Assembly: GCF_014898095.1 (NCBI RefSeq)
Contig: NZ_CP062946.1
Location: 3,162,001-3,226,000 of the forward strand
Direction: 5' to 3'
DNA from: Thalassotalea sp. LPB0316
GTDB lineage: Bacteria; Pseudomonadota; Gammaproteobacteria; Enterobacterales; Alteromonadaceae
DNA length: 64,000 nt
Of this stretch, positions 8,747 through 64,000 are shown piece by piece. The translations under genes were made by a program, and so were the position numbers. The notes below the pieces were generated by a model that saw nothing but the letters and a program-made list of their open reading frames with translations, had not been told where the DNA came from and did not search any database. Positions within the stretch are counted from its first letter, which is position 1. Each line of letters opens with the position of its first letter.

Positions 8747-8874
8747 CCTGCTTTTGGCACTTTGGTTTCGACATTACAAAAGCGGAATAAATGCGATCAT
8801 CTCTAGTTTTTTGTTTATAAGCTTATGAATTTAAAGGGTTCGTCATTGTGGTTTTTGGTGTGTCATCGTTGCGA

Positions 8875-21461: not shown

Positions 21462-24400
21462 ATGACGACGTTTAAAACCGAAGCACAATTTGAGCAGGCA
21501 TTTATCGAGGTGCTTACTCATAAGGGATGGGAGCCTGAGGTACTCAAAAACAAAACCGAAGCGGACTTACTGCAAAACTGGGCGAACATTTTATTTGAAA
21601 ACAATCGCCAGCAAGACCGCTTAAACGACGTGCCACTGACGGCAACGGAAATGCAGCAGATTATTGAACAGATCAAAGAGCTAAAAACACCGCTTAAACT
21701 CAATGGGTTAATTAACGGCAAAACCGTGGCCATTAAGCGCGATAACCCCGCCGATGCCTTGCATCTTGGCAAAGAAGTCAGCCTAAAAATCTATGACCGC
21801 CAAGAAATTGCTGCTGGTCAAAGCCGTTACCAAATCGTCCAGCAGCCGAAATTTGAACGCGGCAGCCCACTGCGTAATGACAGACGTGGTGATGTGTTGT
21901 TACTGATTAACGGTATGCCGGTCATTCATGTTGAACTTAAACGCAGTGGCGTGCCAGTTAGCCAAGCGGTTAACCAAATCGAAAAGTATTCCAAAGAAGG
22001 TATTTTTAGTGGGCTGTTTTCACTCATTCAAGTGTTTGTCGCCATGGAGCCTAATGAGGCCAAATACTTTGCTAACCCAGGGCTAGATGGCAAGTTTAAC
22101 CCAGATTACCAATTCAATTGGGCCGATTTTAACAACGAGCCCATGAACCATTGGAAAGATATTGCCTCGACACTGTTATCCATCCCCATGGCGCACCAGT
22201 TGATTGGCTTTTACACCGTTGCCGATGATACCGATGGTGTGCTTAAAGTGATGCGCAGTTATCAGTATTACGCCGCCAATGCGATATCGGATAAGGTAGC
22301 CAAAACCAACTGGCAACAACTGGGCAGTGCCAATAATAAAGACAGACTGGGTGGATATGTTTGGCATACCACAGGTTCGGGCAAAACCATGACCAGCTTT
22401 AAATCAGCACAGCTCATTGCCCAATCAAAAGATGCCGATAAAGTCATTTTTTTGATGGATCGCATCGAGTTGGGCACCCAGTCGCTGGCGGAATACCGTA
22501 ATTTTGCAGGCGATGGTGAAGATGTACAAGCCACCGAAAATACTCATGTATTGGTAACTAAGCTAAAAAGCACGTCCCCAGCCGATACTCTAATTGTTAG
22601 CTCTATTCAAAAAATGAGTAATATTTTTGAAGAAGTGGATGATGAAGGCACTGCAACAAACTCGGCAGATATTGAAAAAATCCGCGCTAAACGATTGGTA
22701 TTTATTATTGACGAGGCGCACCGTTCAACGTTTGGCGACATGCTGATCATTATTAAACGCACCTTTCCCCGCGCCTTGTTTTTTGGTTTTACTGGCACGC
22801 CTATCCAAGAAGAAAATGAAAAAAACGGCAATACTACCAGTACCGTATTCGGCAACGAGCTGCACCGCTACAGCATAGCCGATGGTATTCGCGATGGTAA
22901 CGTACTCGGCTTTGATCCCTATAAAGTTCCTACTTTTAGGGATGGTGACTTAAGGCAGGCTGTCGCCCTAGAGCAAGCTAAGGCGGGATCTGTAGCGGAA
23001 GCAATGGATAATCCTGTCAAAAAGAAAAAATTTAATTATTTTATGAATGAAGTGCCTATGGCTGGCTACAAAGACGCTACAGGTAAATACCACAAAGGTA
23101 TTGAAGATTACGTACCTAAAAGTCAGTACCTAAGCGAGACTCACCAAGCCAAAGTGGTAGAAGATATTCTGCACAAATGGGATGTGCTAAGCCAAGGCAA
23201 TAAGTTTCATGCGATTTTGGCTACTAACAGTATTGCTGAAGCCATTGATTATTACCGTCTGCTAAAGGCTGCTAAGCCTGATTTAAAAGTATCAGCACTG
23301 TTTGATCCCAACATTGATAATGATGGCAGTGGCGACCGTGGGCCAACGTTTAAAGGTGATGGTTTGGATGAAATTATCCGTGACTATAATGCGCGTTATG
23401 GCCACGATTTTGATTTTGCCCGTCATGCAGCATTTAAGAAAGATCTAGCCGCACGCCTTGCTCACAAAAAACCTTATGAGCGTATTCATACCGATCCTAC
23501 AAAACAGTTGGATTTATTGATTGTTGTAGACCAAATGCTCACCGGTTTTGACTCCAAGTGGCTGAATGTCTTGTATTTAGATAAGGTAATTAAATACCAA
23601 AACATCATCCAAGCCTTCTCTCGTACCAATCGATTGTTTGGCCCCGATAAGCCTCATGGTGTTATCCGTTACTATCGTTACCCGCATACGATGGAGCAAC
23701 ATATTAATGATGCGGTAAAACTATACTCTGGCGACAGACCCATTGGGTTATTTGTTGATAGGCTAGAAAGTAACTTAGAAGCAATGAATGAACTATTCGG
23801 TGATATTACCGAGTTGTTCATTAGTGCCGGTGTGGCGAATTTTGAAAAGCTGCCAGAAGATGTTGAGGCGTGCGCAAAGTTTGCTGAACTATTTAAAGTA
23901 TTTAACCAGCATCTAGAAGCCGCGAAGGTACAAGGTTTACATTGGGAGCAGTCGGTTTATACATTCACGACGGACGCTTCAACAGGCGAAAATGGCACTG
24001 AACATGAGGTTACTCTCGCCATTAATGAACAAACCTACCTGAGCCTTGCGCTGCGTTATAAAGAGCTCGCATCAAAAGGTGATGGTGGTGGTGCGGGTGG
24101 CGGAGATGTGCCTTTTGATATTAGTGGCTATTTGACGGAAATCGACACAGGAAAGATTGATGCCGACTATATGAATAGTCGCTTCGATAAATATTTAAAA
24201 GAGCTAAATCAGCATAATGATCAAGCCAGCATTGAACTTACGCTTAACGAACTGCACAAGTCATTTTCTTCACTGACGCAAGCTGAACAAAAATACGCCA
24301 AGCTTTTCTTACATGATTTACAGCGTGGCGATGCAAAGTTAATAGAAGGCCATACTTTCAGAGATTACATCAACACCTACAAAGACAATGCTGAAAACGC

Positions 24401-26622: not shown

Positions 26623-28773
26623 ATGTTCAAAAACCTATTTTTTCAAGCCAAAGCAATACCAGAGCTGTCATCTCAACTGGATGCAGACATTCCACGCTAT
26701 CCGCCATTTCTGAAGGGGTTGCCTGCTGCGTCACCCGAGGATTTGCAGTCCACACAAGACGAGCTAATTGCCAAACTGCGCCAGGTACTTGGCTTCAACC
26801 AGCGTGATTTTCAAAGGTTAATTCAGCCCTGCATTGATCATCTGGCTGCTTATGTCCACTTGCTGCCAGCTTCTGAGCATCATCATCACAGTGGTGCGGG
26901 TGGTTTATTACGTCATTCGTTGGAAGTTGCTTTCTGGGCGGCACAAGCTGCTGAAGGGATCATCTTCGTTGCCAGTGGCACTCCAGTTGAGAAAAAAGAG
27001 CTTGAACCAAGGTGGCGTGTTGCGGCGGCATTAGGCGGTTTGTTCCATGATATTGGTAAGCCTGTTTCAGACTTGTCCATCACAGACGAAGATGGATGCT
27101 ATCAGTGGAACCCATTTTTAGAAACCTTATCCCAGTGGGCCACTAATAACCGCATTGAACGCTATTTCATTCGCTGGCGCGACGGACGGTGCAAGCGGCA
27201 CGAGCAATTTTCAATTCTGGTTTTAAACCGGGTGATGACACCTGAGTTGCTCGCCTGGTTAACCCAACCGGGCCCTGAAATTTTGCAAGCCATGCTGGAA
27301 GCAATTGGCAATACCGATCCAGAGCATGTCCTGTCTAAACTGGTCATTGAAGCTGACCAAACCAGTGTACAGCGAGACCTGAAAGCTCAACGAATTTCCG
27401 TTGACGACAATGCCCTTGGTGTCCCAGTCGAACGCTATCTACTTGATGCTATGAGGCGATTGCTTGCCAGTTCCCAGTGGTTGGTCAATCAGCGAGATGC
27501 CAGAGTTTGGATACGAAAATCGAATCAATCAACCCATCTTTACCTGGTTTGGAAAAGCGCGGCTAAGGAAATCATTGAGCTGTTGGCCAAAGACAAGATA
27601 CCTGGCATTCCAAGAGATCCCGATACCCTTGCGGACATCCTCATTGAGCGAGGATTGGCCACTAAATCCGCCTCAAATGAGCGATATGAAAGCTTTGCCC
27701 CTGAAGTGCTGATCAAAGACGGCAAGCCAATCTGGCTACCCATGCTGCATATATCTGAGGCCGATTTATTGTTCAGCTCGAATGTACCAAGTGGTGTGAC
27801 ACTGTTTAACAAATCTGAGTGGGAAGCAACGCAGCAAACACAAGCAGAACCTCAGAGTCGTTCCAGTGAGCATCCAGACTTACCTGAAGCGTCATCATCA
27901 ATTGAACTCAATAATTCGACTGAGTCGCCATCGACAAAACCGTCCGAACAAGATGATGAACTTCGTCATGCCAGTGATGTTAGTACCCCCCAGGCAACTG
28001 AAAATGCCCCAGGTGATGAATGCGAAAAGCCTAACAATTCATATGATGGCGCTATCTCAAATAACGTAAACCAGCAAGATGCAGAGGCATTGAATCTCCC
28101 TGAATCTTTGGCGTGGTTCCCAGAGGCCAGCAGTGCGTTGATTATGGTTGGTGAACAGCTTCTGATCCGCTATCCCGATGCCGTAAGACCTTGGTGTGCA
28201 CCCCGAAAACTGCTTGCTGAACTCAGTCGGTTAGATTGGCTTGAACTAGATCCGGCAAACCCGACGCGTAAAGCCAGAACTGTGACTACAAATGATGGAG
28301 TTCAGGAGCAAGGGTTACTGCTGAAGGTATCGATTTCTAAAGGGCTAACTGCACTGATAGACCTTTCCAAACAAGACGCAGAATCAGTGACAGCAATTCA
28401 GAACAAAGAGGCTTCACAGCGTCCGAGTCGAATTAATATAACCAATGCCCAAGCAAAAGAGCCCGCCACAAGAGCGGAGCGTAAGCAAAAGCCGATTGCG
28501 GCCAATGCGAACTCAAGTACAGACCCCAAACACGCGCAGCGGCAACAGATGGTTAGTTTTGTGAAAGATTTGCCCATCTTACTGACCGATGGCGATTACC
28601 CAGACGTGGATCATAGTGCCGATGGTATTCGCGTCACGATTCAAACCTTACGCCAAGTCGCCAATGCACATGGCATTCCAGCCGGACAGCTGCTTCGGGG
28701 GATCTCGGCCAGTGACCAATGCCAGTTTGATGAGGGGGAAACGGTTCTGTTTACCGCTCACGCTGAACGTTAA
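26623..28773 (+). CDS. traI: Conjugative relaxase TraI (MOBH)
   Basis: Nicks oriT and leads the transferred strand; in this family it also supports rolling-circle replication of the excised element. The 716-residue protein has the MOBH/TraI_2 N-terminal domain with an HD-type metal site (HHHHSGAGGLLRHSLE near residue 87 and FHDIGKPVSD near 140), a variable acidic, low-complexity linker (about 405-480) and a C-terminal TraI_2_C winged domain. It starts the traI-traD operon and is followed by traD after 48 bases. Confidence 0.96.
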   Translation: MFKNLFFQAKAIPELSSQLDADIPRYPPFLKGLPAASPEDLQSTQDELIAKLRQVLGFNQRDFQRLIQPCIDHLAAYVHLLPASEHHHHSGAGGLLRHSLEVAFWAAQAAEGIIFVASGTPVEKKELEPRWRVAAALGGLFHDIGKPVSDLSITDEDGCYQWNPFLETLSQWATNNRIERYFIRWRDGRCKRHEQFSILVLNRVMTPELLAWLTQPGPEILQAMLEAIGNTDPEHVLSKLVIEADQTSVQRDLKAQRISVDDNALGVPVERYLLDAMRRLLASSQWLVNQRDARVWIRKSNQSTHLYLVWKSAAKEIIELLAKDKIPGIPRDPDTLADILIERGLATKSASNERYESFAPEVLIKDGKPIWLPMLHISEADLLFSSNVPSGVTLFNKSEWEATQQTQAEPQSRSSEHPDLPEASSSIELNNSTESPSTKPSEQDDELRHASDVSTPQATENAPGDECEKPNNSYDGAISNNVNQQDAEALNLPESLAWFPEASSALIMVGEQLLIRYPDAVRPWCAPRKLLAELSRLDWLELDPANPTRKARTVTTNDGVQEQGLLLKVSISKGLTALIDLSKQDAESVTAIQNKEASQRPSRINITNAQAKEPATRAERKQKPIAANANSSTDPKHAQRQQMVSFVKDLPILLTDGDYPDVDHSADGIRVTIQTLRQVANAHGIPAGQLLRGISASDQCQFDEGETVLFTAHAER

Positions 28774-36909: not shown

Positions 36910-37828
36910 ACATTCTAAATTCATTATTTGTAACGTTGCCTAGTAACTCGTTACTCACAGTTTTAAATAGTTTCGCCAAAGTATTTTGCAGGTAAACTTG
37001 AAACTTATCCTGAGCTAGGGTTCTATCAAATACATCTGTTGGTAAGAAACGTTTCATTTCTGCAATGAACGCTTCACTAGACACAATATCAGGAAGTCGT
37101 TCGAGAAAGTTTTCCAACATTTTGTTGAAGTGCTCAAGTTTATAATCTGACACCTTGTTTTTAACTAAGTCCATATTGAGTGTCGCGCCTTGTTGCTGTA
37201 ACCAAGCTAAATCCCATATATCTCGGTGGCGGACATACCTTGTAGTGGCAGGTAAAGAAATGATTTTATCCGCCATGACCTCATCCAAGCTTTCTGTCAG
37301 AATTAGCGTATCACTGTATCCATCAGGCAAAAAATCGTAGTTTATTTGAAGAGGTTGCGGCTCTCTTGTATAGGCTGGAATGTTTGCCACTTCTACTTTG
37401 ATTTTTTGTTTTGGCAGATCTTTTCTCTCAGGAGAAGTCACTACCGCTATTTGCCACTTATCAATGCTCAATTCAGAATATTTAGGATCTTGCTTTAGAT
37501 CCTTTGGTTCTTTTACTGTCACTTCAAGCCCGTATCGTTCGCCAATGTACTTTTCTATACAATGTTTCATGTCTGCCAACATTGCTGAGCTGAAATCCTT
37601 CCCGCCAGCAAAATCCAGATCTTCGCTGAAACGATTGCCTCCATAACAAAGTCGTAACGACGTGCCACCTTGAAAAGTTAGTTTGTCTAGAAGTCCACCT
37701 TTCTCTAGCGCAAATAAAATATCGTAGTGTAAGAGCTCTTTCTCTATCACTGAACGCATATGAGATACATTTTCAACCTGCATTGCTTTATTCACCAATA
37801 GCGCGAAATTTTCTTGATCAATTTTCAT
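36908..37828 (-). CDS. abiEii: AbiEii-type nucleotidyltransferase toxin
   Basis: Toxin of the AbiE type IV toxin-antitoxin/abortive infection family, a nucleotidyltransferase that inactivates cell targets (tRNA in studied members). The 306-residue sequence shows the catalytic motif GGTSLRL...FSEDLDFAGG (residues about 55-75) and the later conserved Lys-Asp region EVMADKIISL and RDIWDLAWL. I start at 37828, nine bases after AAGGA; an ATG at 37837 is in frame but too close to the RBS. It overlaps the antitoxin gene by about 11 bases. The gene faces away from the transfer genes. Confidence 0.9.
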   Translation of the reverse strand: MKIDQENFALLVNKAMQVENVSHMRSVIEKELLHYDILFALEKGGLLDKLTFQGGTSLRLCYGGNRFSEDLDFAGGKDFSSAMLADMKHCIEKYIGERYGLEVTVKEPKDLKQDPKYSELSIDKWQIAVVTSPERKDLPKQKIKVEVANIPAYTREPQPLQINYDFLPDGYSDTLILTESLDEVMADKIISLPATTRYVRHRDIWDLAWLQQQGATLNMDLVKNKVSDYKLEHFNKMLENFLERLPDIVSSEAFIAEMKRFLPTDVFDRTLAQDKFQVYLQNTLAKLFKTVSNELLGNVTNNEFRM

Positions 37829-38354
37829 ATAGCCCATCCTTGCTTACTAAATGTGTATTTCGGCCAACTCGTTTTAAGTCTCTGTATGCAGTTTGTTTCG
37901 TTGCTAACCTAAGTGGTCTGCCGACTAAACTGGTATTTTCTATAATATCGATTGGATCTCGTTTCGTATGCGTAAATTCAATTGTACCCAAAGGTGTTTT
38001 GAATTCACCGGAACGCCCCGTTGTCATAACCGTTAAGCGATCTACTGGAATTTGCGAAATAACACCGAAATCAGAAAGTGCAGACTCCAGGCTAATGTAG
38101 TTATATTCTCCACGTCGAATAGTTTTAGCAATTTGCTCCAACGTATCGCTGCCTTTCGACTGCGCTAAATTGTATAAATACACACCATTAATGATTCGGG
38201 TGAGTAAGCCATCGTCTTGCAAACGTTTAATTCCCGCACGCAATGCTCGTTCATTATCTTGATGAAAGATTTTCGCCAGATCTGAATTAGTAAAAACACA
38301 GCGACCACGCTTGTCATATTCTAAGAGCTTTTTAATTGCCTCAGCCTTTTTCAC
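37818..38354 (-). CDS. abiEi: AbiEi-type antitoxin and autorepressor
   Basis: Antitoxin of the AbiE pair, which represses its own promoter. The 178-residue protein has an N-terminal winged helix (KAEAIKKLLEYDKRGRCVFT and LAKIFHQDNERALRAGIKRL) and a C-terminal domain (VISQIPVDRLTVMTTGRSGEF) typical of AbiEi. It is first in the operon and overlaps the toxin gene. It lies between traA and dsbC, where SXT carries the mosAT pair, so it may likewise help keep the ICE. Confidence 0.88.
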   Translation of the reverse strand: MKKAEAIKKLLEYDKRGRCVFTNSDLAKIFHQDNERALRAGIKRLQDDGLLTRIINGVYLYNLAQSKGSDTLEQIAKTIRRGEYNYISLESALSDFGVISQIPVDRLTVMTTGRSGEFKTPLGTIEFTHTKRDPIDIIENTSLVGRPLRLATKQTAYRDLKRVGRNTHLVSKDGLYEN

Positions 38355-56701: not shown

Positions 56702-57004
56702 AAGTTTGCTCCTGATATGACAATAATCAGTCCCTAGCCTAATCCTCTGTGAGGTAATGGCCTTTCAGCTAGGTGGAAGAATTGAGCATCTTTCTAACTA
56801 TCCTGTCTGGATAAGACGGTTACACTGACTATCAAATATTGCTGATCTGTTTCAGTGATATCTGCGCCTGAGAGCATGAGCTCAAAGGAAGCCCGCCGCT
56901 GAGTTTTCTCAGTGGTACTAAGAGGTAGCTAGCCTCCTTAAACAAATAGCCTGCATGTTTTTACATGCTCAACCATGCGTTCCTTGCGGTTCGCCTTTTC
57001 ACCA
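56702..57004. other. Divergent regulatory region upstream of the ssb operon
   Basis: No gene. It contains short hairpins including GCATGT-TTTT-ACATGC near 56952-56967 and CTGAG-TTTT-CTCAG near 56911-56924, then runs into the first two-hairpin leader. Promoters for both the s063-like gene and the ssb operon should lie here. Confidence 0.5.
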
Positions 57005-57067
57005 CCCAACTGGGGGAGTTTTCCCCAGTTGGGGGTGACTCCTTCACAACCAAATTAAGGAGTCACC
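57005..57067 (+). promoter_or_regulatory. Two-hairpin leader A (before the 108-residue gene)
   Basis: Hairpin 1: CCCAACTGGGG pairs perfectly with CCCCAGTTGGG (11 bp). Hairpin 2: GGTGACTCCTT (57034-57044) pairs perfectly with AAGGAGTCACC (57057-57067), 11 bp; the latter contains the ribosome binding site and ends one base before the ATG. Confidence 0.8.
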
Positions 57068-57068
57068 A

Positions 57069-57395
57069 ATGGAATATATCTTCGGATTTATTATCCAAAT
57101 CGCAGGCATTATGTTGCTTGCAAAACTGAGCTGGTCGCTTTTGCGATTGCTTGCTCGTCAAAGCGTGCGCCCGTTTCGATTTGTACTTACTCAAATCAAG
57201 CGATTGCTCACACCAACACCAAAACGTCGTCCAATGGCAGTGCCTAAAGCTCCTGGTATGCCCCGTTTGACATCTGCGTTTTACAAAGAGCCACATCAGT
57301 ACGACATGGCTTTACTCGAAATACCAACCTATCTGCGTCGTCAGTCTTCTTTGCCCAGCCGGGTAGAAGCGACTGTGTGCACAGAGTTCAACTAA
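57069..57395 (+). CDS. Unknown small membrane protein ahead of ssb
   Basis: A 108-residue product with one N-terminal membrane helix (IFGFIIQIAGIMLLAKLSWS, residues about 4-23), a basic amphipathic stretch (RLLARQSVRPFRF) and a Pro-rich, positively charged part. I do not recognise it. It starts the ssb-bet-exo transcript and is followed by ssb after 15 bases. Confidence 0.65.
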   Translation: MEYIFGFIIQIAGIMLLAKLSWSLLRLLARQSVRPFRFVLTQIKRLLTPTPKRRPMAVPKAPGMPRLTSAFYKEPHQYDMALLEIPTYLRRQSSLPSRVEATVCTEFN

Positions 57396-57410
57396 GACGA
57401 GGAAAACATC

Positions 57411-57830
57411 ATGAAAAACCAAGTAACACTCATAGGCTACGTTGGCTCTGAGCCAGAGACGCGAGCCTATCCATCAGGTGATTTGGTGACCAGCATTTCG
57501 CTGGCCACTTCTGAGAAATGGCGCGACCGTCAATCCAATGAGCTCAAAGAGCATACGGAATGGCATCGGGTCGTTTTTCGAGATCGTGGTGGATTTAAGT
57601 TAGGGCTAAGAGCAAAAGATTTGATCCAAAAAGGAGCGAAGCTTTTTGTTCAAGGGCCTCAGCGCACGCGCTCATGGGAGAAAGATGGTATTAAGCATCG
57701 ATTGACCGAAGTGGACGCGGACGAGTTTCTGCTTCTTGATAGTGTGAACAAAGCATCTGAGCCATCACCGGCGGATGATGCGAGCTCCCAAGCTAATTGG
57801 GCACAAACATATCCTGAACCAGATTTTTAA
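57411..57830 (+). CDS. ssb: Single-strand DNA-binding protein
   Basis: OB-fold SSB of 139 residues: NQVTLIGYVGSEPETRAYPS, SISLATSEKWRDRQSNELKE and HTEWHRVVFRDR are the standard SSB segments. The C-terminal tail ends WAQTYPEPDF, lacking the usual acidic DDDIPF, so its protein-binding tail may differ from host SSB. It works with Bet and Exo in the ICE recombination module. Confidence 0.95.
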   Translation: MKNQVTLIGYVGSEPETRAYPSGDLVTSISLATSEKWRDRQSNELKEHTEWHRVVFRDRGGFKLGLRAKDLIQKGAKLFVQGPQRTRSWEKDGIKHRLTEVDADEFLLLDSVNKASEPSPADDASSQANWAQTYPEPDF

Positions 57831-57849
57831 CCGAGCAAAAACGCTTTAA

Positions 57850-57905
57850 CCCAGCCGGGAGTACTTTCCCGTCAGGGGCAGACTCCCACTTTGATTGTCG
57901 GAGTC
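57850..57905 (+). promoter_or_regulatory. Two-hairpin leader B (before bet)
   Basis: Hairpin 1: CCCAGCCGGGA with TTCCCGTCAGGG (9 of 11 pairs). Hairpin 2: GACTCC (57881-57886) with GGAGTC (57900-57905), the RBS arm, ending four bases before the Bet ATG. Confidence 0.72.
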
Positions 57906-57909
57906 CACA

Positions 57910-58728
57910 ATGGAAAAACCAAAGCTAATTCAACGCTTTGCTGAGCGCTTTAGTGTCGATCCAAACAAACTGTTCGATACCCTAAAAGCAACAGCATTCA
58001 AGCAACGTGACGGTAGTGCACCGACCAATGAGCAGATGATGGCGCTCTTGGTGGTTGCAGATCAGTACGGCTTGAACCCTTTCACCAAAGAGATTTTTGC
58101 GTTCCCTGATAAACAAGCTGGGATTATTCCAGTGGTAGGTGTCGATGGATGGTCTCGCATCATTAATCAACACGACCAGTTTGATGGCATGGAGTTTAAG
58201 ACTTCAGAAAACAAAGTCTCCCTGGATGGCGCGAAAGAATGCCCGGAATGGATGGAATGCATCATCTACCGGCGCGACCGTTCGCACCCGGTCAAAATCA
58301 CTGAGTATCTGGATGAAGTCTATCGACCACCTTTTGAAGGCAACGGCAAAAATGGCCCTTACCGTGTAGATGGTCCATGGCAGACGCACACTAAGCGAAT
58401 GCTAAGACATAAATCCATGATCCAGTGTTCCCGCATTGCGTTTGGCTTTGTGGGAATTTTCGATCAAGACGAAGCAGAGCGAATTATCGAGGGCCAAGCA
58501 ACACACGTTGTTGAGCCATCGGTGATTCCACCCGAGCAAGTTGATGATCGAACCCGAGGGCTTGTTTACAAGCTTATCGAGCGGGCGGAAGCTTCAAACG
58601 CTTGGAATAGTGCATTGGAATATGCCAATGAACATTTTCAAGGTGTTGAGCTGACGTTTGCGAAACAAGAAATCTTTAATGCACAGCAACAAGCAGCCAA
58701 AGCGCTCACACAGCCTTTAGCTTCTTAG
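57910..58728 (+). CDS. bet: Single-strand annealing protein Bet (RecT family)
   Basis: Anneals complementary single strands; with Exo it lets SXT-type ICEs recombine with each other into hybrids. The 272-residue protein has the RecT/Bet core (GLNPFTKEIFAFPDKQAG, then IIPVVGVDGWSRII, residues about 58-90). I start at the ATG 57910, the family length, not the TTG at 57895. Preceded by its own two-hairpin leader. Confidence 0.95.
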   Translation: MEKPKLIQRFAERFSVDPNKLFDTLKATAFKQRDGSAPTNEQMMALLVVADQYGLNPFTKEIFAFPDKQAGIIPVVGVDGWSRIINQHDQFDGMEFKTSENKVSLDGAKECPEWMECIIYRRDRSHPVKITEYLDEVYRPPFEGNGKNGPYRVDGPWQTHTKRMLRHKSMIQCSRIAFGFVGIFDQDEAERIIEGQATHVVEPSVIPPEQVDDRTRGLVYKLIERAEASNAWNSALEYANEHFQGVELTFAKQEIFNAQQQAAKALTQPLAS

Positions 58729-58750
58729 CGCCACGCATTCATTTTACTAA

Positions 58751-58809
58751 CCCTGGCGGGATTATTCTCCCGTCAGGGGGAAGGTCTCGTCTTTTTTTGG
58801 AGATCTTCC
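58751..58809 (+). promoter_or_regulatory. Two-hairpin leader C (before the 47-residue gene)
   Basis: Hairpin 1: CCCTGGCGGGA with TCCCGTCAGGG (11 pairs, one G-U). Hairpin 2: GGAAGGTCTC (58779-58788) with GAGATCTTCC (58800-58809), 10 pairs with one G-U, ending immediately before the ATG. Confidence 0.78.
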
Positions 58810-58953
58810 ATGACTAAATCAGCCTCACTTTTTCGCTTGGTATTGGTTGTTGCCCTTGTCTTAGGTTCGATTCAAGCCGGTAAAGCGGCAATTGATTCGG
58901 TTCAAGCAAGTGTTGTTCAGCACCAAACAGCGTTAGCACAAGCTGCAAAGTAA
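58810..58953 (+). CDS. 47-residue hydrophobic peptide between bet and exo
   Basis: Reading gives MTKSASLFRLVLVVALVLGS followed by IQAGKAAIDSVQASVVQHQT and ALAQAAK: a signal-anchor-like helix (residues about 7-22) and a short polar tail rich in Ala and Gln. No family is known to me. A dedicated leader of the shared type argues that it is a real gene despite its size. It may be a small membrane or secreted factor. Confidence 0.65.
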   Translation: MTKSASLFRLVLVVALVLGSIQAGKAAIDSVQASVVQHQTALAQAAK

Positions 58954-58961
58954 CCACTTAA

Positions 58962-59010
58962 CCCTGAAGGGGAGTTCTCTCCTTCGGGGGAGTCTCCCCT
59001 CAAAGGAGGC
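58962..59010 (+). promoter_or_regulatory. Two-hairpin leader D (before exo)
   Basis: Hairpin 1: CCCTGAAGGGGA with TCTCCTTCGGGG (12 pairs counting G-U). Hairpin 2: GTCTCC (58992-58997) with GGAGGC (59005-59010), one U-G, containing the RBS, three bases before the ATG. Confidence 0.72.
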
Positions 59011-59013
59011 AAT

Positions 59014-60030
59014 ATGAAGGTTATCGACCTATCACAACGTACTCCTGCATGGCACCAGTGGCGCATTGCAGGGGTTACGGCATCTGAAGCCCCAATTATT
59101 ATGGGGCGTTCACCCTACAAAACACCTTGGCGATTATGGGCAGAAAAAACCGGATTCGTATTACCGGAAGACCTGTCGAATAATCCAAATGTGCTTCGCG
59201 GTATAAGGTTGGAGCCTCAAGCAAGGCGAGCATTTGAGAATGCGCATAATGACTTTCTTCTGCCGTTATGTGCAGAAGCCGATCATAACGCAATCTTTCG
59301 AGCCAGCTTTGATGGCATCAACGATGCGGGCGAACCCGTTGAACTGAAATGTCCTTGCCAGTCAGTTTTTGAGGATGTGCAATCTCACCGAGAACAAAGC
59401 GAGGCGTACCAGTTGTATTGGGTGCAAGTACAGCATCAAATACTGGTCGCCAATAGCACGCGAGGTTGGTTGGTTTTCTATTTTGAGGATCAACTGATTG
59501 AGTTTGAAATACAACGAGACGCGGCGTTCTTAACTGAGTTGCAAGAAACAGCGCTTCAGTTTTGGGAGTTAGTACAGACCAAAAAAGAACCGTCAAAATG
59601 CCCTGAGCAAGATTGTTTTGTTCCCAAGGGTGAAGCCCAATACCGTTGGACATCGCTGTCTCGACAGTATTGCTCAGCACATGCCGAAGTGGTCCGACTG
59701 GAAAATCACATTAAATCTTTGAAAGAGGAAATGCGAGACGCCCAGTCAAAATTGGTCGCCATGATGGGTAACTACGCTCATGCCGACTATGCTGGGGTCA
59801 AACTCAGCCGCTACATGATGGCGGGCACGGTGGACTATAAGCAATTGGCCACCGATAAGTTAGGCGAGCTGGATGAACAGGTTTTAGCCGCTTACCGAAA
59901 AGCGCCACAAGAGCGGTTGCGCATTAGCACCAATAAGCCAGAGCAGCCCGTTGAAACACCAATCAAAATCAGTCTTGAGCAAGATAACTTGGTTCTGCCA
60001 GGTGACTCACCGAGCTCATTTTATTTTTAA
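59014..60030 (+). CDS. exo: Lambda-type exonuclease Exo (YqaJ family)
   Basis: 5'-3' double-strand exonuclease that makes the 3' overhangs Bet anneals. The 338-residue protein has the YqaJ motifs GVTASEAPIIMGRSPYKTPW (residues about 20-39), RGIRLEPQARRAFE, and the catalytic FRASFDGIN and VELKCPC (Asp near 96; Glu-Lys near 108-110). Last residues SSFYF resemble the tails of two other proteins downstream. A terminator follows. Confidence 0.93.
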   Translation: MKVIDLSQRTPAWHQWRIAGVTASEAPIIMGRSPYKTPWRLWAEKTGFVLPEDLSNNPNVLRGIRLEPQARRAFENAHNDFLLPLCAEADHNAIFRASFDGINDAGEPVELKCPCQSVFEDVQSHREQSEAYQLYWVQVQHQILVANSTRGWLVFYFEDQLIEFEIQRDAAFLTELQETALQFWELVQTKKEPSKCPEQDCFVPKGEAQYRWTSLSRQYCSAHAEVVRLENHIKSLKEEMRDAQSKLVAMMGNYAHADYAGVKLSRYMMAGTVDYKQLATDKLGELDEQVLAAYRKAPQERLRISTNKPEQPVETPIKISLEQDNLVLPGDSPSSFYF

Positions 60031-60039
60031 CGTTCACTT

Positions 60040-60062
60040 GGAGCCGATTTCGGCTCCTTTCT
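60040..60062 (+). terminator. Terminator after exo
   Basis: GGAGCCG and CGGCTCC form a perfect 7-bp stem with an ATTT loop and a TTTCTC tail. It separates the ssb-bet-exo transcript from the cobS group. Confidence 0.7.
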
Positions 60063-60177
60063 CATGCGCTTACATCGAGTGCATCAGAAAGCAGTTTCAC
60101 TCGTAGCCAATGCTGGGTACGAATGATAGAGCGAGCTGAACTCTTACATACACAGCCATACCACAATCAACACACCA

Positions 60178-60240
60178 CCCGACGGGGACTTCATTCCCTG
60201 TTGGGCATGGTGCCTCGTCAAAACAGATGAGGTTTACCAT
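60178..60240 (+). promoter_or_regulatory. Two-hairpin leader E (before cobS)
   Basis: Hairpin 1: CCCGACGGGGA with TTCCCTGTTGGG (11 pairs, two G-U). Hairpin 2: ATGGT (60207-60211) plus CCTC (60213-60216) with GAGG (60229-60232) plus ACCAT (60236-60240), covering both the RBS and part of the start codon. Confidence 0.72.
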
Positions 60241-61198
60241 GACTGAACAATCTCCATTTTTGGTTCAAGTGAATCAAGCGTTTAATGTCCCGGCTCCTGA
60301 TGCTTTCGTTCTGGAAGGATTTAGTGCCGACACTACCCATCCAAACATTCCCGTTCGCAAGGACGAGTATGTTTTTAGAAAAGAAGACTTACGTGACGTA
60401 TTGGCGTTTTTGTCTAACCCAGACGGTGACGGTTTGTATATTACAGGCCCCACTGGATGCGGTAAGACCTCGCTAATTTGCCAAGTTGCTTCTCGATTGA
60501 ATTGGCCTGTTCAGCAAATTACTGCGCACGGTCGATTGGAGTTGTCCGATCTTATCGGTCACCACACGCTGGTTAATGGCAACATGACCTTTGTGTATGG
60601 ACCGCTGGCACTGGCTGTAAAGCATGGCCATTTGCTGATCATTAATGAAATGGATCTTGCTGAGCCTGCTGAACTGGCTGGGCTCAATGACATTTTGGAA
60701 GGTGCCCCGTTGGTCATCGCACAAAATGGCGGTGAGATCATCATGCCACATAACAAGTTTCGTTTTATCGCAACCGGCAACAGTGCGGGCAGCGGTGATC
60801 AAACGGGCTTGTATCAAGGCGTGCTTCAACAGAATTTGGCTTTCCTTGATCGCTTTAGAATCATTGAAGCGACCTATGCAGAGCCATCTGTAGAGGAAGC
60901 CATTCTGGAGAACGTTACGCCGGGCTTGCCAGAAGTCTTTCGCCAAAAAATGGTGAAGGTGGCTGGTGACATTCGTCGTCTTTTTATTGGGGGCGCGGAT
61001 GGCGGTGCGGAGCTTAGTATCACCATGTCCACTCGGACCTTGGTGCGCTGGGCAAAGTTAACACTTGCTTTTAAAGGTGCTCCTAACGCAGTGGAGTATG
61101 CACTGGTTCGGTCTTTGACGGCTCGTGCTGAGTTGGAGCAACGAGAAGCCATTCACCGTATTGCCGCTGATGTATTCGGTGATCACTGGGAGGATTGA
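60239..61198 (+). CDS. cobS: CobS/MoxR-type AAA ATPase
   Basis: AAA+ ATPase of the MoxR/CobS clade, annotated cobS in SXT; no cobalamin role is expected. The 319-residue protein has Walker A YITGPTGCGKTSL (about 77-89), Walker B LLIINEMDLAEP (about 135) and the MoxR/CobS segment EGAPLVIAQNGGEII followed by FRFIATGNSAGSGD. Such ATPases act with a VWA protein, here the CobT-like gene 2.4 kb downstream. The ATG 60239 is chosen over 60227, which lies in the hairpin loop and RBS arm. Confidence 0.9.
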   Translation: MTEQSPFLVQVNQAFNVPAPDAFVLEGFSADTTHPNIPVRKDEYVFRKEDLRDVLAFLSNPDGDGLYITGPTGCGKTSLICQVASRLNWPVQQITAHGRLELSDLIGHHTLVNGNMTFVYGPLALAVKHGHLLIINEMDLAEPAELAGLNDILEGAPLVIAQNGGEIIMPHNKFRFIATGNSAGSGDQTGLYQGVLQQNLAFLDRFRIIEATYAEPSVEEAILENVTPGLPEVFRQKMVKVAGDIRRLFIGGADGGAELSITMSTRTLVRWAKLTLAFKGAPNAVEYALVRSLTARAELEQREAIHRIAADVFGDHWED

Positions 61199-61200
61199 TG

Positions 61201-61965
61201 ATGGAAAAGTGCTTTGCTCTTTACCGTTACAGTCATTCTGATGGGACAGCCAAAGAATGGGCCATTTATGTTGGATCAGATAACCAGGAGATTGAAGTTC
61301 GGTTTGGAAAAGCCGGTCAATTGTCGCAGCAGCGATTGATTGACTCGACTGATCCTAACGCTGAAGCAGACCGACGAATCAATGAGAAAATCAACAAGGG
61401 TTATCGATTTGTTGGACAAGTCGGCATTGATCATCAAGGGCGGCCATTTGAACTCTCAAATGCGCTTGATAGCGTAGCGTGCGCCAATAACGTCAGTTGG
61501 GAGTTTCGTACTCGCAAGGACGTCAATGGCCAAATCTCGCTGGCGCAAAAAGCGTTGTTCGATATGGCAAAGCTGCTTGAAGCCTATGGCTTGGCTGTTA
61601 TTGATGATAACCAGGTCAGGATTGGAGAATGGTCATTAGGGTTTTGCAAAAGCGGATTACCTAGTACCAATCAAATCAGCATGGTGTCAGGTGAAGGCGC
61701 TGGCATTGTTAACACGGATGATGGCCCGTGGCCATTGTTGCTGTTGCTGGCTTTTAAGCGTCAATTACCACCTCTGTGTTCGCTCACAGTAGCGAGTCCT
61801 GAAGGGATAGAAGTATCCGACCAACTGAAGTTGGAAAAAGATGTATTGCGGTTGCTAGGCAGTGATTTAGAGCGGGTTCGCCCGATAGCTGAAGCACTGG
61901 ACTTAATGCCTGCGAAAATCGATCTCAACCAATCGTCGCCTGATTCGCAAAATTACTATTTCTGA
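61201..61965 (+). CDS. WGR-domain-like protein
   Basis: A 254-residue protein whose first 80 residues resemble a WGR domain (FALYRYSHSDGTAKEWAIYV, then EVRFGKAGQLSQQRLID), a fold that in PARPs and MolR-type proteins binds nucleic acid. The remainder (GQISLAQKALFDMAKLLEAY, LKLEKDVLRLLGSDLERVR) is helical. It ends SQNYYF. It overlaps the end of cobS (TGATGATG), so translational coupling replaces the leader found at other genes here. The family is not established. Confidence 0.65.
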   Translation: MEKCFALYRYSHSDGTAKEWAIYVGSDNQEIEVRFGKAGQLSQQRLIDSTDPNAEADRRINEKINKGYRFVGQVGIDHQGRPFELSNALDSVACANNVSWEFRTRKDVNGQISLAQKALFDMAKLLEAYGLAVIDDNQVRIGEWSLGFCKSGLPSTNQISMVSGEGAGIVNTDDGPWPLLLLLAFKRQLPPLCSLTVASPEGIEVSDQLKLEKDVLRLLGSDLERVRPIAEALDLMPAKIDLNQSSPDSQNYYF

Positions 61966-62000
61966 TAGTGGTGTTGCCATTAGCGCGTCAATTACTACCA

Positions 62001-62062
62001 CCCAAACGGGGGCCATTGCTCCTGTTGGGAGTGGTGCGTCCCCATCTCGCATGAGGATGCAC
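62001..62062 (+). promoter_or_regulatory. Two-hairpin leader F (before the DUF3150 gene)
   Basis: Hairpin 1: CCCAA(A)CGGGGG with CTCCTGTTGGG (11 pairs, one bulge). Hairpin 2: GTGCGTCC (62034-62041) with GGATGCAC (62055-62062), eight pairs with one G-U; the 3' arm includes the RBS and ends one base before the ATG. Confidence 0.75.
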
Positions 62063-62063
62063 T

Positions 62064-63017
62064 ATGAGTATTCAAACCCTCGACAAACTTTTGATTTGTC
62101 ACATCGACTGTTCCATCTGGAGCGGTAGAAAAAAACTAAGGCCTGAAGATTTCAGACTAGCCAATGGCAGCCAACTTCCACCGAAGGATGTTGCCAGCTT
62201 AGGGAGTAAAAAAATTTGCGACCCTGAGGCATTGGCGAACTTTGAAAGGCTTAAGAAAGAAGCGCAGCGCTTGTGTGAGCAAGTCGGTGTGCGGTTTTTA
62301 GGTGGCTATGCCGTCCCTGAAGACCGAATTGATCAGATTGTTCCAGAGCTTGACCGTATAGGTCTGGAGTTTGCGCAGTGCAAGCAGTTGTTCTTGGACA
62401 ACTATGATCAGGTGACGTTTGACTGGGTTGCAAAACACCCGGAATTTGCAGATGCAATCCGGCGTGCGCTGTCACCCATCGAAGACGTGGAACAACGGCT
62501 TCAGTTCGATTATGCCATTTATCGAATGCAACCAGCTGAACAAGCTGGTGGCTTAGATGACAAGGTCAATGGTATGGGACACACCCTCTTTAGGGAGGTG
62601 GCTCGTGATGCCAATGAACTGTTTGAGCGTTCCGTTGCAGGTAAGAATCAAATCAGCCAGCGAGCCCTTAATCCTCTCAAGCGATTAAGAGACAAGTTGG
62701 ATGGTTTGTCATTCCTGGATCATCGAGTTCAGCCGATGGTTGAAGCGATGGACAATTTATTTGTTCGTCTGCCGAAGACCGGCCCTGTGACAGACAATCT
62801 CTATCACGAACTGATGGCGACCATTTTAATTTTGTCTGATCCAGACAAGATGAGAATGCACGGTGAAGGTCAATTGGATATCAGACAACTGATGCCCAAA
62901 CCTGAACCTAAACCCGCACAGCCAGTATCTGCTCAGGCAGATAACTTACGTGCAATACCACAACCAACCGTCAGACCAAACCTTGGTTCGACTGTACCAA
63001 ACTCATTTTATTTCTAA
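62064..63017 (+). CDS. DUF3150-family protein
   Basis: A 317-residue protein, soluble, matching the DUF3150 pattern (TLDKLLICHIDCSIWSGRKK; VGVRFLGGYAVPEDRIDQIV). Members sit beside cobS and cobT-like genes in ICEs and plasmids, and the role is not known to me. The middle is helical, the C-terminal 50 residues Pro-rich and probably disordered (PKPEPKPAQPVSAQADN), and the end is NSFYF, like Exo and the WGR protein. Confidence 0.8.
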   Translation: MSIQTLDKLLICHIDCSIWSGRKKLRPEDFRLANGSQLPPKDVASLGSKKICDPEALANFERLKKEAQRLCEQVGVRFLGGYAVPEDRIDQIVPELDRIGLEFAQCKQLFLDNYDQVTFDWVAKHPEFADAIRRALSPIEDVEQRLQFDYAIYRMQPAEQAGGLDDKVNGMGHTLFREVARDANELFERSVAGKNQISQRALNPLKRLRDKLDGLSFLDHRVQPMVEAMDNLFVRLPKTGPVTDNLYHELMATILILSDPDKMRMHGEGQLDIRQLMPKPEPKPAQPVSAQADNLRAIPQPTVRPNLGSTVPNSFYF

Positions 63018-63019
63018 CG

Positions 63020-63074
63020 TCCTTGAGGGCATGTTGCCCTGAAGGGCGCATGTCCTCTGAACTATGTAAGAGGA
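63020..63074 (+). promoter_or_regulatory. Two-hairpin leader G (before the 146-residue gene)
   Basis: Hairpin 1: CCTTGAGGGC with GCCCTGAAGG (9 of 10 pairs). Hairpin 2: TCCTCT (63053-63058) with AGAGGA (63069-63074), six perfect pairs; the 3' arm is the RBS, four bases before the ATG. Confidence 0.72.
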
Positions 63075-63078
63075 AATT

Positions 63079-63519
63079 ATGCAATCAACCATCCATAACC
63101 CCAGCCAACTGAACCAGTTTGAACCGCATTTTCGTGGTGTGACTGATGCTGTTGAAAGTGAATTGATACCAGAAGTGGCGTGTTGTCGAACGTTAGTACA
63201 ACGGTCGTACTCAACACATAGTGTCGTGATCCCTAAGAACCCTGTGCTGATCGCAGATGCGGACGCACAAGGTGTTTGGTTATCAGCCATGGTATTTGTT
63301 CCAAACATGGCATTGCAGCAAGCCGCTCATGAGCGGGACTGGCTGCAATATCAACACGAGGTGTCTACTCAGTTACAAGACCAGTACGGTCTGACATTGG
63401 ATGACATCCTGAGTTTAGACCAGCTTAAAACGTCATTTGAACAGCACGAGAGTCCTGCTCAATTGGTGCCTTGGTTAGGTCAAAAATACGACCTGGATAA
63501 GCTAAAAGCACAGGTTTAA
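63079..63519 (+). CDS. Unknown 146-residue protein of the cobS group
   Basis: Soluble, beginning MQSTIHNPSQLNQFEPHFRG with a middle VLIADADAQGVWLSAMVF and a charged helical C-terminal half. I do not recognise a family. It sits between the DUF3150 and CobT-like genes under its own leader, so it is probably part of the same functional set. Confidence 0.65.
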   Translation: MQSTIHNPSQLNQFEPHFRGVTDAVESELIPEVACCRTLVQRSYSTHSVVIPKNPVLIADADAQGVWLSAMVFVPNMALQQAAHERDWLQYQHEVSTQLQDQYGLTLDDILSLDQLKTSFEQHESPAQLVPWLGQKYDLDKLKAQV

Positions 63520-63532
63520 ACATCCACATTCC

Positions 63533-63588
63533 CAGCGGGGAAACGCTCCCGCTGAGGGAGTATTCCCCCTAATGATTAGGAGACTCCC
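63533..63588 (+). promoter_or_regulatory. Two-hairpin leader H (before the CobT-like gene)
   Basis: Hairpin 1: CAGCGGGG with CTCCCGCTG plus outer TCC/GGA. Hairpin 2: GGGAGT (63556-63561) with ACTCCC (63583-63588) and CCTAA (63568-63572) with TTAGG (63576-63580); the RBS TAGGAG lies in the 3' side and the arm touches the ATG. Confidence 0.75.
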
Positions 63589-64000
63589 ATGAATCATCCA
63601 TTAAAAAACGCACTGCCAATCGTTGCCGCCGCTTATGGCGAAAAGTTTGGTGTGAAGGTGCTTATTCAAGGACAAGATGCGTTTACCGATGGTGAGCGGA
63701 TTGTGATCCCAACAGCAAACCCAGACGACCCACACTATCAACAGATAGCTTGGGGTTATCTGGCTCATGAAGCAGCGCATATTCGGCATACTAATTTTGA
63801 CATGGTGCAGAAGGCGTCGTCCAAGCCGATCCGTAAGGCACTTCTCAATATCATTGAGGATGTTCGCATTGAAAACGAATTGGCAAAGGATTACCCCGGA
63901 ACCCGGCGCAGTATTTCGCAAGTGATTGAGTACATGGTGGACACACAGCAAATGTGTGTACCTGAACAGCTTGAGCCTGCATCTAACTTGCAAGCATGGT
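63589..64000 (+). CDS. cobT: CobT-like protein (3' end outside window)
   Basis: Open from the ATG 63589 (TAGGAG six bases upstream) to the window end, 137 codons. The reading begins MNHPLKNALPIVAAAYGEKF and includes GYLAHEAAHIRHTNFDMV and ALLNIIEDVRIENELAKDYP, the metallopeptidase-like HExxH-type helix and Glu segment typical of CobT/VWA proteins of MoxR systems. A C-terminal VWA domain is expected beyond the window. Partner of the CobS-like ATPase. Confidence 0.8.
   Translation, partial: MNHPLKNALPIVAAAYGEKFGVKVLIQGQDAFTDGERIVIPTANPDDPHYQQIAWGYLAHEAAHIRHTNFDMVQKASSKPIRKALLNIIEDVRIENELAKDYPGTRRSISQVIEYMVDTQQMCVPEQLEPASNLQAW

Follow-up and report, generated by a model that had tools for sequence, protein, structure and literature searches.

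Two-hairpin leaders with a covarying third helix at the start codons of mobile-element genes

How could a ribosome reach a start codon whose ribosome binding site (RBS) is held in a stem? The question is raised by a 64,000-nucleotide (nt) stretch of the 3.55-Mb chromosome of Thalassotalea sp. LPB0316 (NZ_CP062946.1, positions 3,162,001 to 3,226,000 of the forward strand; hereafter the window), in which a recombination/cobS block at 56900-64000 has a leader of about 60 nt at the start of eight genes. We take the host element of the block to be an integrative and conjugative element (ICE) of the SXT/R391 type; such ICEs, like IncA/IncC and IncHI2 plasmids, spread resistance widely. Records of Proteus mirabilis and Vibrio alginolyticus contain blocks that share 97-98% identity with this 7.1-kb block, and its gene order fits the ICE label, the SXT order being ssb-bet-exo (PMC3118119, in excerpt). 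Reviews, in the portions available, treat the regulation of such elements mainly at transcription. A gate on most genes of the block, with a covarying alternative helix, would mean control of the whole set at translation. The family also offers a large natural data set on how strand exchange in RNA governs access to start sites.

All eight window leaders fold as two adjoining hairpins, H1 and H2, spaced by 0-4 nt, with the RBS in the 3' arm of H2, which is the architecture proposed in an original prediction made from the letters alone. In most leaders the H1 stem has CCC on its 5' side and GGG on its 3' side. H2 ends 0-4 nt before the ATG, and inside it at leaders E and F; the original prediction had given the range correctly and named E alone. 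The 8-base-pair (bp) stem that it placed at 62034-62062 in leader F exists, as part of a longer H2 at 62031-62065. Minimum free energy (MFE) z-scores of the leaders run from -3.0 (B) to -9.4 (A) against 200 mononucleotide shuffles. The architecture is absent, as predicted, from the starts of ssb and of the gene 3' of the CobS-like ATPase (called the WGR gene in the original prediction), each the second gene of a tight pair; the latter gene has no Pfam match, and its start was taken one base off in this check. That there are eight leaders is an effect of the window, because a ninth is found shortly after its end (chromosome 3227258-3227330), in the same place as the radC leader of a near-identical element (L003).

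An initial loose detector passed about half of all open reading frames (ORFs) and was dropped. Because the registers of H1 and H2 vary among leaders, the covariance model used here, R1, was given a structure assigned by hand on an alignment of 24 leaders, of which one (E) comes from the window. A search with R1 of 208 kb (the window plus the whole of plasmid pRA1) found all eight window leaders at E ≤ 0.0018. There was no further plus-strand match in the 64-kb window at E ≤ 1, and the four minus-strand matches there are palindrome shadows of leaders A, C, E and F, with which they overlap. Recovery of the seven window leaders on which R1 had not been trained excludes chance. Few columns are conserved beyond CCC/GGG, the GGG/CCC core, the Shine-Dalgarno (SD) sequence and the ATG. 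The evidence supports a real and recurrent family of cis-acting RNAs, one per translation unit, in which pairing is kept by compensatory change.

The original prediction missed what is now the strongest clue to mechanism, a third helix. We number the strands 1 to 4. Strand 1 comprises the 5' arm of H1 together with its apical loop, strand 2 is the 3' arm of H1, strand 3 is the 5' arm of H2 that hides the RBS, and strand 4 is the RBS strand. Strand 1 is complementary to strand 3, the partner of strand 4 in H2, and thereby duplicates the RBS strand. No 1:3 pairs were built into R1. The fit between strands 1 and 3 was assessed by permutation, comparing each H1 paired with its own H2 against the same H1 paired with the H2 of other leaders in the same element. 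One set comprised 74 leaders that had passed a filter, from 16 loci; three loci that nearly duplicate others were omitted, and the filter kept five of the eight window leaders. In this set the longest 1:3 helix averaged 8.50 bp against 6.53 expected, with z = 10 and none of 2,000 permutations reaching the observed value.

Two larger sets derived with R1 gave the same result. For the first we took the best 150 of 209 matches and kept 106, dropping 31 from six near-duplicate or fragment loci, six weak matches, three on the minor strand, two that are not two hairpins and two without a start. With n = 102, the 1:3 z-scores were 13.8 (length) and -14.1 (energy), with 0 of 5,000 permutations. The second was drawn from 20 loci in 17 genomes outside the R1 training set, as the best 150 of 151 matches; 99 were kept, and 24 minor-strand matches, ten that are not two simple hairpins, nine weak ones, six duplicates and two without a start were dropped. 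Here z was 7.5 for length and -9.8 for energy (n = 99; 0 of 5,000). The control pairings 2:4, 1:4 and 2:3 stayed at |z| ≤ 1.8 in both sets. After removal of leaders more than 85% alike from the second set (88 of 99 retained) the 1:3 signal remained at z of 7.0 and 9.5 (0 of 5,000), with 2:4 at -0.9 and 0.2.

Two more stringent tests gave the same answer. In one, swapping was confined to leaders of homologous genes, which was possible for 113 of 188 leaders in 19 protein families. The 1:3 helix then gave z of 10.1 to 11.6, H1 10.5 to 14.0, H2 9.4 to 14.4 and the 2:4 control 0.3 to 0.4. Thus the 1:3 helix covaries about as strongly as the two hairpins themselves. In the other, 187 of 205 leaders were aligned with two anchors only, the H1 G-run and the strand 3 C-run; along the antiparallel diagonal z was successively 7.1, 3.8, 5.2, 4.1, 3.4, 2.0, 2.7 and 3.4, with off-diagonal cells at -2.6 to 2.2 apart from one mentioned below. 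Among the eight window leaders taken by themselves, all 40,320 permutations gave p = 0.0007 by energy and 0.012 by length for 1:3. We regard the anatomy of three helices, H1, H2 and 1:3, as close to certain. The helices in the window are listed in Table 1.

Table 1. Leaders, third helices and leaderless genes of the recombination/cobS block (window positions; E, expectation value of the R1 match; aa, amino acids)
Feature	Position	Strand	H1	H2	Gene that follows, or remark	E
Leader A	57005..57067	+	57005-57033	57034-57067	108-aa ORF at 57069; R1 match 57000-57071	9e-8
Leader A third helix	57011-57020 x 57037-57046	+			10 bp	
Leader B	57850..57905	+	57850-57877	57881-57905	bet/RecT at 57910 (Pfam RecT)	9e-8
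Leader B third helix	57857-57862 x 57882-57887	+			6 bp	
Leader C	58751..58809	+	58751-58778	58779-58809	47-aa ORF at 58810	7e-9
Leader C third helix	58755-58763 x 58783-58791	+			9 bp	
Leader D	58962..59010	+	58962-58989	58992-59010	YqaJ/exo at 59014	3e-4
Leader D third helix	58968-58974 x 58994-59000	+			7 bp	
Leader E	60178..60241	+	60178-60205	60206-60241	CobS-like AAA ATPase at 60239; training-set member	4e-11
Leader E third helix	60181-60187 x 60213-60219	+			7 bp	
Leader F	62001..62065	+	62001-62029	62031-62065	DUF3150 gene at 62064	4e-9
Leader F third helix	62008-62013 x 62038-62043	+			6 bp	
Leader G	63018..63074	+	63018-63048	63053-63074	146-aa ORF at 63079	2e-3
Leader G third helix	63025-63034 x 63048-63057	+			10 bp by eye; 5 bp by script confined to H2	
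Leader H	63533..63588	+	63533-63554	63556-63588	CobT-type gene at 63589 (Pfam CobT)	5e-4
Leader H third helix	63537-63542 x 63563-63568	+			6 bp	
ssb	57411..57830	+			without leader; second gene in tight pair	
Gene 3' of CobS-like ATPase	61198..61965	+			without leader; second gene in tight pair	

Over 205 leaders the mean energies are -19.6 kcal/mol for H1, -14.1 for H2 and -15.8 for the 1:3 duplex, the last being a best fit and somewhat flattered (swapped pairs average -11 to -14). Strand 3 is shared, so the 3:4 and 1:3 pairings are mutually exclusive, and they compete for it at like strength. The 1:3 helix averages 9.9 bp; it uses at least one base of the H1 loop in 195 of the 205 leaders, and in 159 at least three 5' bases of H1 are left over that could form a stem at its base. 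The CCC:GGG pairing there could therefore persist, making the open form an H-type pseudoknot. A rough estimate of the energy of this pseudoknot relative to H1, with strand 4 unavailable, has a mean of -0.7 or +1.9 kcal/mol for a penalty of 7.0 or 9.6. At these penalties 163 or 136 of the 205 leaders, respectively, have an open form that is either better than H1 or less favorable by no more than 3 kcal/mol. In partition functions a leader's own strand 1 outdoes a swapped one in 138 of the 196 leaders with a swap partner, an effect that is real and small. The SD core lies within strand 4 in 194 of 205 leaders, and H1 and H2 are spaced by 0-8 nt. The 11 nt 5' of H1 are poor in G (at most 14% at any position and 0-7% in the last eight), often with A-A before the CCC, and this stretch is a possible landing site for a ribosome or a protein.

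The leaders are likely to work as translational gates. Going further, we favor, with moderate confidence, a bistable cis-acting gate at each leader that is shut at rest and whose open form is a pseudoknot. At rest strand 1 would pair with strand 2 in H1 and strand 3 with the RBS strand in H2, closing the start site; in the alternative state strand 1 would lie on strand 3, with the basal CCC:GGG stem of H1 retained and the RBS free. We would count two steps as established, namely the two hairpins with the RBS in strand 4, by sequence and covariation, and selection on the 1:3 helix, by covariation. The shut state at rest is predicted, and agrees with the attenuator reported at bet that is discussed below. 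Since the RBS is shut at equilibrium and the pseudoknot estimate lies near that of H1, the open form would matter while strand 4 is either untranscribed or held by a 30S subunit, which perhaps waits on the G-poor stretch, and the 1:3 helix might then act as a latch or a delay. A ribosome-set latch of this kind operating across a whole mobile element, with one three-strand switch per start codon, is a tentative proposal that we would not yet expect to hold. If it were true, translation of dozens of establishment and DNA-handling genes could be limited to bursts, while transcription is active or on entry into a new host, and these genes would be shut otherwise.

A number of results weigh against a bistable gate. 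In nested partition functions for 200 of the 205 leaders, the mean probability that the SD is unpaired is 0.18 for the intact leader; blocking strand 2 brings it to 0.23 and blocking H1 to 0.17, and in the former case it exceeds 0.5 in just 13 of 200. Thermodynamic opening through loss of strand 2 is thus unsupported; with the RBS shut at the computed, pseudoknot-free equilibrium, the 1:3 helix cannot open the gate by thermodynamics alone, and it is a kinetic or ribosome-held route that we infer. The search for a trigger was empty. The upstream stop codon lies at no fixed distance from H1 among the 205 leaders, and none of five plasmid records encodes a protein of the ProQ or CsrA families, the two that were tested, although two whole genomes in the same search have host copies; the single element-encoded opening factor raised in the original prediction is so far unsupported. 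As to the helix itself, 51 leaders aligned simply by MAFFT yielded only three pairs in RNAalifold, because the registers of H1 and H2 vary. The 1:4 control reached |z| of 2.3 to 2.6 in the set of 74 leaders, a single off-diagonal cell of the anchored alignment stands at z = 3.4, and the 2:4 control within the window gave p = 0.038 by energy (0.39 by length). The third helix is just 6 bp in leaders B, F and H. Finally, related leaders are not independent, and so the z values are not exact probabilities.

The same observations bear on other explanations. The leaders might be static attenuators, in which H2 reduces initiation to a constant extent, H1 serves as a spacer or stabilizer, and nothing switches. 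This is unlikely, though it fits the RBS being shut in nearly all computed equilibrium states, the empty trigger search, and the description of the bet leader solely as an attenuator in the excerpt of PMC4542580; it leaves unexplained why the apex of H1 tracks strand 3 base by base, including loop bases that have no role in H1. Somewhat less doubtful is that a trans-acting partner, such as an RNA-binding protein of host or element, ribosomal protein S1 or an antisense RNA, opens or holds H1 and releases many cistrons together, for example on entering a new host. This overlaps with the bistable gate and would supply its trigger. The same gate occurs on many DNA-handling and antirestriction genes, the G-poor stretch of about 11 nt could be the landing site, and tisB provides a precedent, with a single-stranded standby region and an S1-bound pseudoknot (PMC7708055, in part). 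Against it stand the five plasmid records without a ProQ or CsrA gene, and the variation of strand sequences among leaders, which makes one antisense RNA unlikely. Coupling to the upstream cistron, where a terminating ribosome would open H1 and free strand 1 to capture strand 3, seems improbable. Of the 205 leaders 153 follow an ORF of 50 aa or more that ends within reach, and in 80 of these its stop is 0-29 nt before H1; the distances are nevertheless broad (115 of 153 at 0-59 nt, 30 at 60-149 nt and eight inside or past H1), 147 nt separate leader E from the exo stop, and leader A has no plus-strand ORF of 50 aa or more ending shortly before it. Moreover, a ribosome at that site would mask strand 1 instead of releasing it.

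To two further accounts we give very little weight. Template-switching events occur in close inverted-repeat DNA, and strands 1 to 4 are close inverted repeats, so that strands 1 and 3 might have become alike as a mutational artefact without selection. Strands 2 and 4 should then have become alike too, and there is no 2:4 signal in the sets of 102 and 99 leaders, the de-duplicated set or the homologous-gene swap; in addition the 1:3 signal spans 19 protein families. Alternatively the leaders could be DNA elements, hairpins in single-stranded DNA that serve transfer or recombination. They are found on the DNA-handling genes of conjugative elements, and the same idea was raised for STAXI (PMC2864571, in excerpt). 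On the other hand they end at start codons and contain the SD, and those of pRA1 are restricted to one gene block, with none at the tra genes.

Turning to known systems, a strong translational attenuator upstream of SXT bet is reported to hinder bet and exo expression despite high transcription, and to be present in IncA/C plasmids, where it is untested (PMC4542580, citing Garriss et al. 2013; in excerpt). It occupies the same place as leader B, directly upstream of the RecT/Bet gene, so the idea of a gate is not new for one of the eight leaders. The original prediction missed this report, and knew of no named motif. That holds for Rfam: no leader matches any of its 4227 families, either at gathering level in the window and 11 loci, or in lax mode over 7.1 kb of the window and six loci. 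The attenuator is reported for one site in that excerpt, and the window element has nine leaders, belonging to a wide family with a third helix. The kind, an attenuator of translation acting in cis, is therefore known at a single site; searches of one open full-text library, which lacks most subscription papers, returned nothing on the family, its spread or the third helix.

The nearest system in logic is repZ, in which a hairpin loop reportedly pairs with the RBS-hiding strand and a leader peptide is involved; the leaders, too, have a hairpin apex complementary to the RBS-hiding strand. In ColIb-P9 (IncI-alpha) repZ is controlled by a pseudoknot switch with an antisense RNA (PMC8383071, in excerpt). 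It is a single gene with its leader peptide and antisense RNA, whereas the present family has dozens of copies and its hairpins adjoin. In tisB the RBS is sequestered and a pseudoknot is needed for binding of 30S and S1 at a single-stranded landing region (PMC7708055, in part). The sequestered RBS is alike, and the G-poor stretch and proposed pseudoknot of the leaders may correspond to the other two features, but in that account the landing region is about 100 nt from the RBS and serves a single gene.

STAXI (RF01728) is a pseudoknot that occurs in repeats close to genes for ssb, topoisomerase, antirestriction and integrase (PMC2864571, in excerpt). It gave no covariance match on the scanned stretches and has only the gene context in common, occurring as two or three repeats side by side where the leaders occur once per start codon. 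The radC RNA sits before mobile-element genes like those of the leaders. It is described as a cis-regulatory RNA of Proteobacteria (RF01754; PMC2864571, as excerpted). With 149 positions and another structure, it does not match the leaders. It had no match at its gathering score of 40 in the window and 11 loci, nor in 11 genomes or records searched directly, where controls were also unmatched. Among 274 genomes a single one (G318) has matches, four in number, and at three of these an R1 match (E ≤ 0.01) lies 14-25 nt downstream of the radC RNA or overlaps its 3' end; at the fourth E is 0.88. These radC RNAs (L128 5480-5725, 7085-7237 and 8830-8975, minus strand; L137-L140) are modules distinct from the leaders, and the arrangement looks as if two regulatory RNAs were stacked before one gene.

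The family spreads much more widely than the original prediction foresaw, although the search of IncC-type plasmids that it proposed was productive, leaders being found in IncA and IncC plasmids. In 24 sources including the window, mostly retrieved via the ATPase, R1 gave 209 matches at E ≤ 0.1 on both strands. Leaders occur as well on an IncHI2 plasmid and on one plasmid each from Shewanella, Pseudomonas and Paraburkholderia. In a sample of the class of the window's host R1 matched 39 of 369 genomes (E ≤ 0.001; the window's own genome included), with up to 11 matches per genome, and in a sample of the phylum 15 of 398 (E ≤ 1e-4). The genes behind the leaders include ssb, bet, exo, radC, antirestriction and methylase genes. 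We scanned 77 downstream proteins (73 of 87 family representatives and four more); among the families listed (25 of 30 and 25 of 36 in the two tables) the named ones are RecT, YqaJ exonuclease, SSB, RadC, ArdC, antirestriction protein, DNA methylase, DUF3275, DUF3577 and STY4534, and many of the 77 proteins match no family. The Citrobacter plasmid pNFYY361-1 (L134 4650-14979) has the gene set of the IncC block (ssb, recT, exo, MoxR ATPase, DUF3150, VWA) with AT-rich intergenic regions; R1 has no match in it at E ≤ 1, and none of the eight starts that were examined shows a two-hairpin fold. The leader is therefore not a by-product of these genes. When one IncC leader was compared with phage records by BLASTN, 78 records matched at E ≤ 10, one of which covers at least 80% of the query, the Salmonella record AB571791 (127,710 bases, filed among phages); the other nine among the matches listed are weak (E ≥ 2). 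A search of viral contigs gave two short ones (L076 and L077).

On pRA1 (IncA, 144 kb) 26 plus-strand matches with E up to 0.05 fall in a single 26-kb stretch downstream of traN (L079), and R1 found none before tra genes. In 21 of these matches the 3' end coincides with an annotated start codon, and in three it falls at an in-frame alternative start of an annotated gene (37092-37155, 37353-37414 and 37894-37961), where an in-frame ATG with the same stop suggests that the annotated starts are misplaced. Another, at 24141-24208, precedes and suggests an unannotated 33-aa ORF. The last (26709-26777), located before the bet leader, runs up to a TTG that opens a four-codon frame, and may be a relic or a false match. 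Elsewhere on the plasmid there is one weak plus-strand match, before an annotated gene (L080 6363-6442, E = 0.02). Minus-strand matches mostly overlap plus-strand leaders, the exceptions being L079 47555-47647 (E = 0.17) and L080 43138-43206 (E = 0.85).

Some individual leaders are of interest in themselves. A striking case is an 11-bp 1:3 helix in Parasutterella (L071), from an early set that contained some false leaders. The MFE fold of the IncC bet leader (L006 11316-11397) is the alternative pairing and not the two hairpins, and that of the leader of the gene at 8849 on the IncHI2A plasmid pEc21617-310 (L135) is already a long helix between the 5' region of H1 and strand 3. Read by eye, with no terminator scan, the leaders have no U-tract right after their hairpins and were rejected as intrinsic terminators. 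Between exo and leader E, at 60040-60066 of the window, a 7-bp stem (ggagccg..cggctcc) followed by a T-rich run does resemble an intrinsic terminator, again by eye. Elsewhere, a Group II intron (RF02012; L122 773-922, minus strand) adjoins a leader array.

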